Translations under genes and position numbers: made by a program | Notes under the pieces: generated by a model | Seen by the model: only the letters and a program-made list of their open reading frames with translations | The model's database searches: none | What the model was told of the DNA's origin: nothing | NCBI GenBank assembly: GCA_022767285.1 | Contig: JALENY010000025.1 | Location: 1-64,000, forward strand | DNA: 64,000 nt | Direction of reading: 5' to 3' | Source: Lachnospiraceae bacterium | GTDB lineage: Bacteria; Bacillota; Clostridia; Lachnospirales; Lachnospiraceae | Shown: positions 10,763 to 48,172 of the stretch, piece after piece | Layout of the letters: the number at the start of each line of letters is the position of its first letter | Position numbering within the stretch: the first letter of the stretch is position 1

Positions 10763-11188
10763 ATGGCACATGAGATACTCACCGTAAAATTGTATGAACT
10801 GGATAAAAAAATTGCACAGATTCACAGCAGAATTCAGTTAAGTGAGATGGCAGATCGAAAACAGATCGAGGCGGACCTTAAAGTATTTCAACGAGAATGT
10901 GCGGAAAACAGGATGGTGCTCAGGAACCGGCTTAAATACAGCAAAGCAGAGAAAGTAAGACAGATTTATGAGTCTTATGAGAAAATAGAGAATATTATCC
11001 GGGAAACAAAAGATAAGATCTGTGGGAGTGCTACTGAGAAAATGCAGGAGGATCTGCCAATAGAAGAAAGAATACTGCTGGCGGAGTATATCCTTGATTT
11101 TGCCATGCAGGCAGCCGATGAAGCGCTGTTGATATCTATGGAAGCAATTTGTATCCAAATGAAGCAGGAGGAGAGAAACGATGATTGA
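10763..11188 (+). CDS. Hypothetical coiled-coil protein coupled to FtsH
   Basis: 141 residues, almost entirely helical and charged, with heptad-like runs at about residues 5-45 and 55-85 (IEADLKVFQRECAENR and RQIYESYEKIENIIRETK). No signal peptide or membrane segment. I do not recognise the family. AAAGGAGAAG precedes the ATG. Its last eight bases overlap the start of ftsH, so the two are very likely translated together. A role as adaptor, regulator or substrate of FtsH is possible but rests on position only. Confidence 0.7.
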   Translation: MAHEILTVKLYELDKKIAQIHSRIQLSEMADRKQIEADLKVFQRECAENRMVLRNRLKYSKAEKVRQIYESYEKIENIIRETKDKICGSATEKMQEDLPIEERILLAEYILDFAMQAADEALLISMEAICIQMKQEERNDD

Positions 11189-13016
11189 ACACCACGACAA
11201 AAAGCCCAGTAAGAAACCTTTTATTTTTTACTATTCTATTGTGCTTCTTATTGTTATGCTGTTAAATGCACTGCTGTTTCCCGCTGTTCTTCAGTCAAGA
11301 GTAAAGGAAGTTGAGTACAGTACATTTCTGGAAATGGTGGACAGCGGAAAAGTAACAAACGTGGCAGTGGAAGAGGATGCGAACCAGATTGTTTTTATCA
11401 CGGAGGAAGAAGGAAAAACCGGTTATTACAAAACCGGAATCTTCCCGGATGACGGCCTTCGCGAACGTTTGGAAAATGCGGGAGTAGGATTCAGTGCGGA
11501 GATTCCGACCCAGAACTCCCCTCTTCTGAACTTTATTCTGACCTGGATACTGCCGTTGGCATTGTTTGCAGGCTTCGGGCAGCTCATGTTTCATATGGTT
11601 CAGAAACGAAGCAGCAACATGCCTGGAAATGCTATGAGTTTCGGAAAATCCAATGCGAAAATATACGCGGAGACAGAAACCGGAAAGACCTTTGCGGATG
11701 TTGCCGGCCAGGATGAGGCAAAAGAGGCGCTGACTGAGATCGTGGATTTTTTGCATAACCCGGAGAAGTATTCCAAAATCGGTGCAAAGCTTCCCAAAGG
11801 TGCACTTCTTGTAGGCCCTCCCGGAACCGGAAAAACACTTCTGGCAAAAGCAGTGGCAGGAGAAGCTCATGTTCCGTTTTTCTCAATTTCCGGCTCGGAC
11901 TTTGTGGAAATGTTCGTAGGTATGGGCGCAGCAAAAGTGCGTGATCTGTTCAAACAGGCAAATGAAAAAGCACCCTGCATCATATTTATTGATGAGATTG
12001 ATACCATTGGTAAAAAGCGTGATAATGGAGGCATGGGCGGAAATGATGAGCGCGAACAGACGTTGAACCAGCTTTTGACGGAAATGGATGGATTTGATGG
12101 AACCAAAGGTGTTGTAATTCTCGGTGCGACAAACCGCCCGGAATCCCTTGACCCGGCACTTTTAAGACCGGGACGCTTTGACCGGCGTGTACCGGTACAG
12201 CTTCCGGACCTCAATGGCCGTGTGGCAATCCTGAAGGTTCATGCAAAGGATGTCCGTCTTGATTCCGATGTCGATTTTGCAGCGGTCGCGCGGGCTACTT
12301 CCGGAGCATCAGGAGCGGAGCTTGCTAACATGGTCAATGAGGCGGCGCTGCGGGCAGTTCGGATGGGCAGAGACCGAGTTACTCAGGCAGATCTGGAAGA
12401 GAGCGTGGAAACGGTAATCGCAGGCTATCAGAGAAAGAATGCGGTGATGTCAGAGAAGGAGAGAAGGATTGTCTCTTATCACGAGATTGGGCATGCGCTG
12501 GTTGCGGCAAAACAGAGCAATTCCGCACCTGTCACGAAAATTACCATTATTCCCAGAACGTCCGGTGCATTAGGCTATACCATGCAGGTGGATGAAGGGG
12601 AACACTATCTCATGAGCAAAGAAGAAATTACTAATAAAATTGTCACTTACACCGGTGGACAGGCAGCAGAGCAGCTGGTATTCGGCAGCATCACAACCGG
12701 TGCCTCCAATGATATTGAACAGGCTACCAAACTTGCAAGGGGCATGGTGTCCAGATATGGTATGAGCAATGATTTTGGCATGGTGGCGCTGGAAACCGTA
12801 TCCAATCAGTATCTTGGCGGCGATACTTCCCTGGCCTGCTCAGAACATACTTCTGCCAAAATCGATGAACAGGTTATAAAAATCGTAAAAGAAGCCAGAG
12901 AAAAGGCAGATGAAATTCTGCGTGAAAATGAAGGAAAACTCCATGAACTGGCTGAATACCTCATTGAAAAAGAGACGATAACCGGTGAGGAATTTATGGA
13001 TATTTTGAACCGTTGA
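11181..13016 (+). CDS. ftsH: ATP-dependent zinc metalloprotease FtsH
   Basis: A membrane-anchored AAA+ protease of 611 residues that degrades misfolded membrane proteins and short-lived regulators. Two membrane helices (about residues 14-36 and 112-135) flank a small external domain. The AAA domain has Walker A GPPGTGKT (about 212), Walker B IIFIDEID and the arginine-finger region RPGRFDRR. The protease has the zinc site HEIGH (about 434, where HEAGH is usual) and the third ligand in SNDIEQAT near 510. The C-terminus is shorter than in E. coli. It overlaps the upstream coiled-coil gene. The HflK/HflC pair that controls FtsH lies 2 kb downstream. Confidence 0.97.
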
Positions 13017-13378: not shown

Positions 13379-14416
13379 ATGACTGGAAAAGAAATCGTAT
13401 TAAAAGCAATGAATTTTGAAAAAACCCCACGGCTGCCGGTTGCAATTCTGGATGGATATGTATGGATTTTGAGAAACAACGGGCTGTCTTTCCGGGAACT
13501 GATCGACATGGAAGACTGCGGTGCAAAAATAGTGGAAAAAGCATTTGACGATTTCGGAACGGATATTGTATATCCGAATATTCATGCTTTTAACTTTTTG
13601 TTTGAAATTATGGGAGGAAGTGTAAGCTGTGATAAAAAGGGTGAGGCATTTGAAGTAACGAAGGCACCTTTATCAGAAATCTCTGACATCGGAAAGTACG
13701 ATGTTGACCAGCTATTTACGCAACTGGAGCAGAAAAAGGAATTTGCATCGGGAATGAAGTTGCTGGAATCATTGAAACAGTATTATGGAGATGAAAAACT
13801 TGTTGCTGCTGCAGGAGTGGCACCTTTAACCCTTGCGGGTATGATGCTGGGCGTACAGAATTTTATGATGCAGCTTTATGATGATGAGGATGGAACAGCT
13901 GCCCTGCTTGAATTTGCTACGGAATTTATCGTTCGGCAATGTGAGAGCCAAATTGCCCGAGGTGCGGATGCACTGTTGATTGCGGATCCGGTGTCTTCCG
14001 GCGACCTCATCAGTCCGGCCATGTTTGAGGAATATTCGCTTCCTTATTTAAAGAAAGTAACGGAACGGTTGAAAAAATACAACATTCCGATTATTCTGCA
14101 TATATGCGGTCACACGAAGGCGCGTCTGGAACCTCTGAAAGAAGCCGGTATTGATGGATTTTCGTTAGCTGCAGTTGACCTGAAAGAGGCTCTGGAGACT
14201 GCAAGAGGCCACTATGCGATTTTCGGCAATATGGATCCATTTGAAGTTATGCAGTCCATGACACCGGAAGGAGTATATCAGACATGCAAAGATCTTGGAG
14301 AGATTGCCGGCCTTGACGGCGGTTATGTGATGATGCCCGGCTGTGATCTGCCGCCCGCAGCTCCCCTGGCCAATATACAGGCGATGATCAGAGCGGCACA
14401 TGATAAAACAGAATAG
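13379..14416 (+). CDS. MtaA/uroporphyrinogen decarboxylase-family methyltransferase-like protein
   Basis: 345 residues of the HemE/MtaA/CmuA barrel superfamily. It keeps the zinc-thiolate ligands of the corrinoid-methyltransferase branch: LHICGH near residue 240 (His-x-Cys) and a further cysteine in MMPGCDLPP near 320. True heme-pathway HemE lacks these and has a different N-terminus. Members move methyl groups from a methylated corrinoid protein to a thiol such as coenzyme M or tetrahydrofolate. No corrinoid protein or substrate-specific methyltransferase gene is next to it, so the physiological partner is unknown. Strong AGGAGG ribosome site. Confidence 0.8.
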   Translation: MTGKEIVLKAMNFEKTPRLPVAILDGYVWILRNNGLSFRELIDMEDCGAKIVEKAFDDFGTDIVYPNIHAFNFLFEIMGGSVSCDKKGEAFEVTKAPLSEISDIGKYDVDQLFTQLEQKKEFASGMKLLESLKQYYGDEKLVAAAGVAPLTLAGMMLGVQNFMMQLYDDEDGTAALLEFATEFIVRQCESQIARGADALLIADPVSSGDLISPAMFEEYSLPYLKKVTERLKKYNIPIILHICGHTKARLEPLKEAGIDGFSLAAVDLKEALETARGHYAIFGNMDPFEVMQSMTPEGVYQTCKDLGEIAGLDGGYVMMPGCDLPPAAPLANIQAMIRAAHDKTE

Positions 14417-14534: not shown

Positions 14535-14563
14535 TTGACAAATAAATAACAAAGTGTTATATT
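14535..14563 (+). promoter_or_regulatory. Promoter of the manganese-type leader RNA
   Basis: TTGACA (14535-14540), a 17-base spacer, then TATATT (14558-14563). The expected start of transcription is near 14570, just before the first arm of the RNA element. Confidence 0.75.
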
Positions 14564-14574
14564 ATATCCAACAA

Positions 14575-14671
14575 ATAAAAGGGAGTAGCTGAACATCTGA
14601 ACAGGATGGATTTGCGACCGTCAACCGATGCCGAGAAGCATCCGTAACAAATGAGATAGCAAGACTTTTAT
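14575..14671 (+). ncRNA. yybP-ykoY-like (manganese) riboswitch
   Basis: The element starts with ATAAAAG (14575-14581), which pairs perfectly with CTTTTAT (14665-14671) as the closing P1 helix. Right after the first arm comes GGGAGTAGC, close to the GGGGAGUAGC hallmark of yybP-ykoY RNAs. Inside are small hairpins (CATC/GATG; GATGC-CGAGAA-GCATC), and GCAAGA lies before the last arm. The last arm is shared with the following terminator, as expected of a switch in which bound Mn2+ keeps P1 and lets transcription continue. The family call is from memory of the consensus; a covariance-model search would decide. Confidence 0.62.
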
Positions 14672-14703
14672 TGTGGCAGACGTCATGATAAGGGTCTTTT
14701 TTT
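14659..14703 (+). terminator. Terminator of the manganese-type riboswitch
   Basis: AAGACTTTTAT (14661-14671) pairs with ATAAGGGTCTT (14688-14698, two G-U pairs), followed by seven Ts. Its left arm overlaps the P1 closing strand, giving a mutually exclusive fold. Confidence 0.75.
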
Positions 14704-14736
14704 ATTTCACAGGAAATTTCTTTCCTGTGAAATAAA
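14701..14736. terminator. Perfect 16-bp hairpin with four-base loop
   Basis: TTTATTTCACAGGAAA (14701-14716) and its exact complement (14721-14736) surround a TTTC loop; Ts precede it and As follow it. It could terminate in both directions or be a scar of a lost element. The next 400 bases, up to hflK, contain no recognisable gene. An open frame at 14740-15018 and a 12-codon ORF with a fine AAGGAGGAG site at 14886 are both unconvincing. Confidence 0.6.
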
Positions 14737-15143
14737 AAAATGCTTCACCTGGATTGCACTGCGGCAGAGTGGAATATGCCGTTAATGTGCTTCACCGCAG
14801 GCGTAGAATCTGCGGGCAGGATTCTTATTTGTAACTGGAATGTAATGACAGCTGCCACAGACAACTTGCAGAAAAGGAGGAGAAAATGCGAAACAAAATC
14901 TTCAAAATATCTGGTTCAAAGTAAAATTGCGGACACCCGTCAGCAGTTGGCTGAGGCAGCCAGTCGGGTAGAAAAGATACTGACCGATTTGAAATTTCAA
15001 TATGGATACATATCATAGTCATGGTATAGTATTTATATGAGCAATGTGTCAGGTTGCGAGAAACAAAAACGGATGTATGCGGAGTGTGCTGCGATCTGGT
15101 AGTGAAATGGCATAATATTTACAAAAAGAAAGGAAGAAAAACT

Positions 15144-16148
15144 ATGTTTGGAAGAAAAAAACAACATGTTGCACAGGAACCGGAAAATCTGAATAAGAGC
15201 CAAAAGATGCCGGAGCTGCGTAAACTGAAAAAAATTATTATCGGTGTGTTTATTGGGGCATTTGCAATTATCACAATTCTTCAGTCTCTCTATTCTCTAC
15301 AGGAAGATGAATACGCCGTGGTTCAGACTTTTGGATATGTGCAGGTGGTGGAAACGCCCGGTATTAAGTTTAAAATCCCTTATGTTCAGACAGTTCACAA
15401 AGTGAGCAAAGCATCAAAACAGTTTGCGGTAGGATATGATCTGGATACAGACGAATCCATTGACAAAGAGTCATTTATGATCACCAGCGATTATAATTTT
15501 GTAAATGTTGATTTTTACTTTGAATATCAGATTGTGGATCCCATAAAATATTTTTATGCATCAGAGGAACCGGAAGTTATTGTAAAAAATCTGGCACAGA
15601 GCTACATACGTGATACAGTGGGAAGCCATGGGGTAGATGAAGTTCTGACCACCGGAAAATATGCGATTCAGTCAGAAATCAAGACGAAACTTCAGGAGAG
15701 GATGGAACTGGAAGATATTGGTATTCAGATTACAAACGCGGTAATTCAGGATGCAGAAGTGCCTACTGTGGAAGTCGCCCAGGCTTTTAAGAATGTGGAA
15801 GATGCAAAACAGGGTATGGAAACCGCCATCAACAATGCAAATGCTGACGCGAACACCAGAATACCGGCAGCAAATGCGGAGGCGGATAAGATTATAAAAG
15901 ATGCACAGGCGCAGAAAGAGGCTCTGATTGCGGAGGCAGAAGGACAGGTTGCCCGTTTCAATTCTCTCTATGAAGAGTATATCAAGTTCCCGTTGATTAC
16001 AAAACAGCGTATGTTCTATGAAACGCTTGAAGAAGTGCTGCCGAATATGGAGATCTATATTACGGATGGTTCCACACAGACCTTGCTTCCGCTGGAATCA
16101 TTCAGCACAATTGATGTTAACAATGGATCCGGTACAAAGGAGGAATAA
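15144..16148 (+). CDS. hflK: HflK-like SPFH/band 7 membrane protein
   Basis: 334 residues: a basic cytoplasmic N-terminus, one membrane helix (about residues 30-52), then a stomatin/prohibitin domain starting EDEYAVVQTFGYVQVVETPGI, and a long Ala/Glu-rich coiled coil (about 215-290). HflK and HflC form a membrane ring that encloses FtsH and restrains its proteolysis. The frame is open from 15054, but GAAAGGAAG precedes the ATG at 15144 and that start gives the normal N-terminus. hflC follows after 2 bases. The ftsH gene is 2 kb upstream, supporting the assignment. Confidence 0.88.
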   Translation: MFGRKKQHVAQEPENLNKSQKMPELRKLKKIIIGVFIGAFAIITILQSLYSLQEDEYAVVQTFGYVQVVETPGIKFKIPYVQTVHKVSKASKQFAVGYDLDTDESIDKESFMITSDYNFVNVDFYFEYQIVDPIKYFYASEEPEVIVKNLAQSYIRDTVGSHGVDEVLTTGKYAIQSEIKTKLQERMELEDIGIQITNAVIQDAEVPTVEVAQAFKNVEDAKQGMETAINNANADANTRIPAANAEADKIIKDAQAQKEALIAEAEGQVARFNSLYEEYIKFPLITKQRMFYETLEEVLPNMEIYITDGSTQTLLPLESFSTIDVNNGSGTKEE

Positions 16149-16150
16149 TC

Positions 16151-17023
16151 ATGAAGAAAAAAGCTATTATCATCCCGTGTGTCATTATTATTTTATTATT
16201 GTCGTTGTCATCCGCTGTGGTAACGAAGCCGGGTGAATATCGTGTTATCAAACAATTCGGTAAAATTGTTCGAGTAGAAGAAAATGACGGTTCCACATAT
16301 GGATTAAGCTGGAAAATACCGTTTATTCAGACCGAAACCGCGATCAGTTCCAAAATGAAGCTCAGTGACCTTCCGGCCAGCGATGTTATGACTTCAGACA
16401 AAAAGTCCATGATTTCCGACTGTTTTGTGCTGTGGAAGATTGAAGATCCGGTAAAATTCATCCAGAAACTGAGCGGATCCGAGCAGAATGCGGAATCCCG
16501 CATCAGCTCCAATGTTTACAATGCACTGAAAAATGTAATCAGCAGCCTCTCCCAGGAAGAAGTAATTTCAGGAAGGGACGGGGAACTGGCAAACCTTCTG
16601 ACCGAAAAGCTGGGTACCAATTTGGAATCCTACGGCATTAAAGTAGAGAAAATCGAGACGAAGATGCTGGATCTGCCAAGTGAAAACAAAGATGCAGTGT
16701 ACAACCGTATGATCTCTGAAAGGAACAATATTGCCGCATCCTATACCGCTCAGGGCGAACAGCAGGCTCAGGAAATCAAGAATGACACCAACGAGCAGGT
16801 TACGGTCCTCCTGGCACAGGCTCAGAAACAGGCAGATACAACCATCGCCGAAGGGGAAGCGGAGTACATGAGGATCTTAAGCAGCGCTTACAATGATGAG
16901 AGCAAAGCAGATTTCTATGGGTTTGTAAGACAACTGGATGCAGTGAAAGCGACGCTGAAAAACGGTGATAACACCATCGTTCTCGATAAGGATTCACCGA
17001 TTGCGGAAGTTTTCTATGAATAA
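16151..17023 (+). CDS. hflC: HflC-like SPFH/band 7 membrane protein
   Basis: 290 residues: an N-terminal membrane helix (residues 4-22) directly followed by the SPFH domain (KPGEYRVIKQFGKIVRV), then a helical region with AQKQADTTIAEGEAEYMRIL near residues 220-240, which is typical of HflC. It completes the HflKC complex with the preceding gene; GGAGGAATAATC before the ATG overlaps the end of hflK. A terminator lies 25 bases after the stop. It is somewhat shorter than E. coli HflC. Confidence 0.88.
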   Translation: MKKKAIIIPCVIIILLLSLSSAVVTKPGEYRVIKQFGKIVRVEENDGSTYGLSWKIPFIQTETAISSKMKLSDLPASDVMTSDKKSMISDCFVLWKIEDPVKFIQKLSGSEQNAESRISSNVYNALKNVISSLSQEEVISGRDGELANLLTEKLGTNLESYGIKVEKIETKMLDLPSENKDAVYNRMISERNNIAASYTAQGEQQAQEIKNDTNEQVTVLLAQAQKQADTTIAEGEAEYMRILSSAYNDESKADFYGFVRQLDAVKATLKNGDNTIVLDKDSPIAEVFYE

Positions 17024-47963: not shown

Positions 47964-48076
47964 ATAAAAAAGAGACAGAAAACAATGTAACGAAGATTGT
48001 GGAATGAAAATCCTGACAAGATCCGCACTTGTATTTTAAAAAGAATCGTAGTACAATCAATATGACAATCGAACAA

Positions 48077-48154
48077 AGGGGAGCTCGCAGACGGGCTGAG
48101 AGGAAGGTGTGACCTTCGACCCATAACCTGATTTGGATAATGCCAACGTAGGGA
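48077..48154 (+). ncRNA. TPP riboswitch (THI element)
   Basis: Hallmarks: GGGGAGC, GGGCTGAGAGG, GACCCATAACCTGATTTGGA and AATGCCAACGTAGGGA. A promoter TTGTAT-17-TACAAT (48029-48057) precedes it. It senses thiamine pyrophosphate and controls the thiM operon. Confidence 0.97.
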
Positions 48155-48172
48155 TATATTGAGTAGTTAATT

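Follow-up and report, generated by a model that had tools for sequence, protein, structure and literature searches.

The 64,000-nucleotide stretch of Lachnospiraceae DNA analysed here (the window) carries an RNA element that we interpret, with good confidence, as the leader of the hflK-hflC operon: a predicted metal-responsive transcriptional ON-switch, probably for Mn2+, of a yybP-ykoY type lacking helix P4. That this RNA stands before hflK in the source genome (2.67 Mb, 41 contigs), and repeatedly in relatives, points to metal status as a regulator of membrane protein quality control.

Organization of the leader

The predicted aptamer lies between a near-consensus promoter and an intrinsic terminator (Table 1) and scored 114.6 bits with R1, a covariance model made from 4 sequences, and 98.3 bits with R2, a covariance model built from RNAs of this group only, without leaders detected by RF00080. 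As the complete 3' strand of P1 sits inside the 5' arm of the terminator stem, P1 and terminator are mutually exclusive, and the same overlap was seen in all 12 hflK-linked leaders that were folded (the window and 11 relatives). Folding gave a terminator strength of -18.0 kcal/mol, and in single-strand folds the terminator form reached -36.3 kcal/mol versus -21.0 kcal/mol with the aptamer pairs enforced. Since the terminator form wins in folding, termination would be the default and a ligand stabilizing P1 would be needed for read-through. The RNA folding z-score was -4.16, with none of 200 shuffled sequences folding equally well. An earlier interpretation of the same DNA (the sequence-only reading) had described a strong promoter, a perfect 7-bp P1 with an associated hallmark and a competing terminator; promoter, hallmark and terminator were all recovered, and P1 has 8 bp, one more than claimed.

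The second hairpin listed in Table 1 had been described as a perfect 16-bp hairpin at 14701 and as a possible scar of a lost gene. Its pairing is indeed perfect, whereas the trace of a lost gene was found elsewhere, in the remnant at 14902-15018. The hairpin could sequester the T-run within the read-through RNA. The idea that it belongs to the switch in general was rejected, with a stem of at least 12 pairs occupying this position in 3 of 130 loci, versus 0.5% in shuffles; hairpins resembling it occur in L121, L067 and, judged by eye, L230.

Table 1. Features of the leader, the spacer and the hflK-hflC genes (window positions).
Feature	Position	Strand	Basis
Sigma-70-type promoter TTGACA-17-TATATT with upstream TG	14535..14563	+	11/12 matches
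Predicted P4-less Mn-type riboswitch aptamer (P1, L1, P2, P3 with L3, P3.1)	14574..14672	+	model scores, covariation
P1 switch helix, 5' strand AATAAAAG	14574..14581	+	pairs with 14665-14672
P1 switch helix, 3' strand CTTTTATT	14665..14672	+	common to aptamer and terminator
L1 hallmark GGGAGTAGC	14581..14589	+	sequence; GGGAGTA (GGGAGUA in RNA) in 91/91 relatives
L3 hallmark CGTCA (CGUCA in RNA)	14619..14623	+	sequence; each base 93-99% conserved in A5 alignment
Intrinsic terminator: stem 14661-14698 (17 pairs), T-run 14697-14703 (seven T)	14661..14703	+	
Perfect hairpin, 5' arm holding the terminator's T-run, 3' arm ending in an A-run	14697..14740	+	
RBS-like AGGAGGAG and ATG in spacer	14875..14888	+	sequence
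Remnant of the 3' end of an orphan ~145-aa gene (14902-14994 and tail)	14902..15018	+	61% identity over 31 aa
hflK (334 aa)	15144..16148	+	TIGR01933 207.1 bits, cut-off 159.4
hflC (290 aa)	16151..17023	+	TIGR01932 165.8 bits, cut-off 134.4

Conservation and class assignment

A BLAST search of 61 genomes with 151 bases of the element gave matches in 7, its own genome counted. With R1, matches were obtained in 118 of 397 family genomes (E ≤ 0.01), a group of Mn-type leaders that spans the lineage yet escapes the standard Rfam model, and an order-wide search with R2 matched 121 of 295 genomes. The alignment of 91 relatives (A5) was fitted to the model, so its pair counts lean toward that model; 97.5% of its cells were paired, 20 of 25 pairs had changed on both sides, and its covariation score was 0.530, compared to 0.204 when shuffled and 0.03-0.09 when slid. 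A further 22 RNAs, picked up by R2 in the vicinity of HflK relatives, were 94.1% paired with both-side changes in 15 of 25 pairs, and scored 0.368 versus 0.189 when shuffled. Besides the L1 and L3 motifs of Table 1, conservation among the 91 relatives reaches 99-100% at most positions of GCAAGACUUUU, its C being kept in 76% and one A in 55%. GGGAGUA, CGUCA and GCAAGACUUUU are what we take to be the hallmarks of the yybP-ykoY class. Four leaders (L061, L062, L064, L068), otherwise typical and located before the orphan gene, have CGACA in place of CGUCA in L3 and are candidates for an altered metal preference.

The sequence-only reading had assigned the element to the yybP-ykoY type and had named the RF00080 covariance model as the test, a missing hit counting against it. 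RF00080 gave no match to the window RNA at E ≤ 10 (curated cut-off 45 bits), yet R2 recovered 17 of 17 RF00080-detected clostridial loci tested (E ≤ 0.001). Above its cut-off, RF00080 detected nothing in 245 class genomes or in 150 family genomes, clostridial leaders staying below it. Because the mntP leader of E. coli K-12 (L350, 1462-1558), with a score of 41.6, also falls below 45 bits, the RF00080 test is weak here and was set aside as a decisive yes/no test; R2 did not match this E. coli leader.

Among the features of the class, the window RNA contains the L1 core GGGAGUAGC with GCAAGA on the 3' side, CGUCA of L3 within P3, a P1 switch helix exclusive with the terminator and, through R2, homology to accepted members. 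Helix P4 and the four-way junction are absent, the linker between P3 and P1 measuring 5-6 nt in 91/91 sequences of A5 and 3-14 nt in 59/59 of another set. Some RF00080-detected clostridial leaders likewise look P4-less by eye, which suggests that P4 may be optional in the class. As the hallmarks are conserved, R2 finds 17/17 clostridial leaders and RF00080 misses the RNA, we class it, on sequence grounds, as a variant of the Mn2+ riboswitch class without P4 rather than as a scored member of RF00080. Mn2+ is probably the ligand, given this homology and the associated genes.

Genes downstream of the leader

The genes that follow the RNA were assigned with HMMs built in this work at 150 loci (149 among the R1 matches listed, and L007). 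Among these listed matches, the downstream gene encodes a P-type ATPase in 53/150 loci, an orphan protein and/or YccF in 36/150, and an SPFH-domain protein in 19/150 (HflK/HflC-like in 13, flotillin-like in 6); the 42/150 others include, by eye with representatives checked, Na/Ca exchangers, OadB, CNNM, a Na/Pi symporter and a CitMHS protein. The best NCBIfam match of a representative P-type ATPase was of the calcium-transporting type, below the full-length cut-off (the stretch is cut). Mostly by eye, members of the class were seen before sodium-pump decarboxylase beta subunits OadB (L115, PF03977; L131, L144, L172, L173, L182, L186) and CNNM proteins (L141, L151, L159, L184), both of which would be unexpected targets for a Mn2+ switch. 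With R2, three class RNAs were found in the source genome: that of the window, one before MntP (L247; PF02659, 151.6 bits) and one before a P-type ATPase (L248; a weak match, 19.7 bits, E 0.64), so the classical exporters keep switches of their own. At L285 (2251-5950), one class RNA precedes hflK-hflC and a second precedes a Na/Ca exchanger nearby.

HflK was found above the TIGR01933 cut-off in 128 of the 397 family genomes, and in 12 of these (G000, G315, G345, G417, G274, G169, G204, G385, G121, G071, G089, G305), among the matches listed, an R1 match lies closely upstream of hflK on the same strand, where roughly 0.03 such pairs would be expected at random. When 40 of the hflK loci from the other 116 genomes were checked with R1 and R2, the RNA was detected in 2 (L222, L230) and not in 38. 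Among 80 relatives of HflK taken from titled records, which are mostly Lachnospiraceae and overlap with the family set (for example L291/G305, L287/G089), 21 had the RNA upstream of hflK, 68-313 nt before the HflK match, including Parablautia muri, P. intestinalis and Lachnospiraceae bacterium 10-1; it was not found at 59. Most of the hflK genes examined thus lack the RNA, which counts against the preferred reading. About ten genera have this RNA in front of hflK, at spacings down to 68 nt. In L286, L283, L280, L279 and L150, the RBS and ATG of hflK stand almost directly behind the terminator; in L286 about 30 nt separate the T-run from them, which leaves no room for another promoter. On an HflK tree of the 52 family loci examined (the 12 and the 40), the presence of the RNA requires 8 changes, at least 6 of them forced by well-supported branches (shuffled mean 12.6), a scatter that could stem either from repeated acquisition or from repeated loss of an older state. 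From these arrangements, HflKC is a recurrent predicted target of the RNA class. The proposal that metal status controls HflKC is favoured by this comparison across genera and spacings, with Mn2+ assigned by homology and by the associated genes.

The 400 bases following the element had been called geneless, with hflK as the first gene. HflK is the first intact gene, 471 nt 3' of the aptamer, a longer spacing than in relatives, but the spacer is not devoid of gene sequence: it holds a remnant matching an orphan family (E 0.001 over 31 residues; orphan HMM 21-23 bits, E about 1e-7), which reads in frame with a 92-aa ORF that has no clear RBS. The RBS-like sequence and ATG upstream of it are perhaps left over from the same gene. 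Because the remnant matches the orphan family, the decayed gene was a usual target of the class and not a transporter. The earlier suggestion of a lost target gene thus held as to the loss; the lost transporter was rejected because the remnant fits the orphan family and because MntP and the P-type ATPase of the source genome have their own leaders. Neither an intact orphan elsewhere nor YccF was found in the source genome.

The orphan family itself (L059, 1752-2180, and 28 relatives; ~145 aa, often followed by YccF) has invariant or near-invariant motifs GG, KHS and F..D, and matched no Pfam or NCBIfam family at cut-off and no PDB sequence. A four-helix bundle was predicted (mean pLDDT 78), for which a structure search returned generic bundles only, none at E ≤ 0.001. 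A spurious second orphan match in L004, in a frame that overlaps YccF, was left out.

Two close relatives, L056 and L270, keep the promoter and RNA (83-85% identity) and hflK, share the promoter stretch TTGACAAATAAATAACAAAGTG with the window and differ in the spacer, where no recognisable orphan was found; the HflK of L056 (G315) is 82% identical to that of the window. The link between RNA and hflK has therefore outlived the orphan in these relatives. Promoter-like sequences before the window hflK (14989-15016 and 15003-15030) make a second start possible.

About 1.5 kb before the riboswitch and in the same orientation, the window contains an FtsH-like protease gene (by eye, 11181-13016), and a methyltransferase-like URO-D gene (13379-14416) lies between the two. 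A conserved module of FtsH adjoining HflKC was discarded, as no ftsH match was detected in 20 other hflKC neighbourhoods. A TPP riboswitch (61.8 bits) is located at 48067-48172.

Proposed mechanism, alternatives and known systems

According to the proposed mechanism, RNA polymerase would start near 14570, and abundant metal, probably Mn2+, would dock L1 onto L3 and stabilize P1. P1 would then hold CUUUUAUU; because the terminator 5' arm has this sequence as its core, the terminator would be blocked and hflKC transcribed; at low metal the terminator would form and hflKC expression would be low. The ON direction is inferred by analogy with Lactococcus lactis (PMC11087558). Such a switch may tune membrane quality control by FtsH to the metal load. 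Of the orphan gene, a putative former member of the transcript, just the 3' end is left between the leader and hflK.

The remnant in the spacer is also what would be expected if the switch had served the orphan, hflK had its own promoter and the RNA now controlled nothing in this genome. The promoter-like sites before hflK, the 471-nt spacer and the frequency of orphan and/or YccF behind the RNA (36/150, among the matches listed) agree with this idea, but promoter, P1, L1, L3 and terminator are all intact, RNA and hflK stay together in L056 and L270 without a recognisable orphan, and elsewhere hflK is a direct target; a vestigial leader is accordingly considered unlikely. The strong terminator and discrete promoter would also suit an independent small RNA with its 3' end at 14703 and a function in trans, its proximity to hflK being incidental. 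This is highly improbable in view of the P1/terminator overlap kept in 12/12 hflK-linked leaders folded, the window included, and of the 12 hflK pairs seen, among the matches listed, against about 0.03 expected by chance.

The loss of P4 (linker of 5-6 nt in 91/91 of A5), the unusual targets (SPFH proteins, YccF, OadB) and the CGACA of L3 in four loci raise another question, namely whether the RNA is a variant with an altered ligand (Ca2+ or another divalent ion, or a membrane-stress signal) controlling membrane organizers. This we judge quite improbable, as the L1 and L3 core is near-invariant, members of the class are also found ahead of Ca-type ATPases, Na/Ca exchangers and MntP, and P4 is missing, by eye, from some RF00080-detected clostridial leaders as well. 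The preferred reading of a probably Mn2+-responsive leader of hflK-hflC can be extended, with moderate confidence, to the family as a whole. Its Mn2+ riboswitch regulon would have, beside the exporters, a second arm of membrane organizers (HflKC, flotillin-like SPFH proteins, and YccF with the orphan four-helix protein), through which an RNA-level response to metal load would reset membrane quality control dependent on FtsH; recruitment of the leader to hflKC, or its loss there, would have happened several times, and the window would capture one lineage in which an intervening target is being erased, with hflKC becoming the first gene. If true, this would provide a concrete link from intracellular Mn2+ to HflKC-FtsH and flotillins, which is only indirect in B. 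subtilis, and the metal response would be the first functional handle on YccF and the orphan family.

In a literature search not covering Dambach 2015 and Price 2015, with which the class was founded, no paper was found joining yybP-ykoY with YccF, a Mn riboswitch with HflK or HflKC, or yybP-ykoY with Lachnospiraceae; six papers mention both a riboswitch and hflK, and in passages of one of them hflK appears only in a gene table. Available sections of work on B. subtilis describe that Mn2+ excess promotes YqgP-dependent cleavage of MgtE, YqgP being an FtsH adaptor (PMC7231995), and that strains without the TerC proteins MeeF and MeeY need FtsH, FloT/FloA being listed among the co-purifying proteins (PMC10246235). 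Both systems tie Mn2+ load to membrane proteolysis by FtsH, which makes metal control of HflKC-FtsH plausible, and meeY (ykoY) lies behind a Mn riboswitch that controls it; they differ from the window in that these sections report no riboswitch before HflK, HflC or flotillin genes.

The L. lactis riboswitch, as described in the accessible part of its report (PMC11087558), follows a logic that matches the window sequence: Mn2+ stabilizes P1.1, the terminator is blocked and read-through occurs. The yybP-ykoY layout given there comprises P1/P2, P3/P4, a four-way junction, L1 and L3, and a switch helix P1.1 competing with the terminator, and the L. lactis RNA has P4 and the four-way junction, whereas the window RNA has no P4 and so a three-way junction. 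Compared to yybP-ykoY as represented by RF00080, a model that misses it, the window RNA shares the L1 core GGGAGUAGC..GCAAGA, CGUCA of L3 in P3, the P1 switch helix competing with a terminator, the promoter-proximal position and the exporter targets of its group, whereas the targets of window-type leaders also include HflKC, flotillin-like proteins, YccF and the orphan family.
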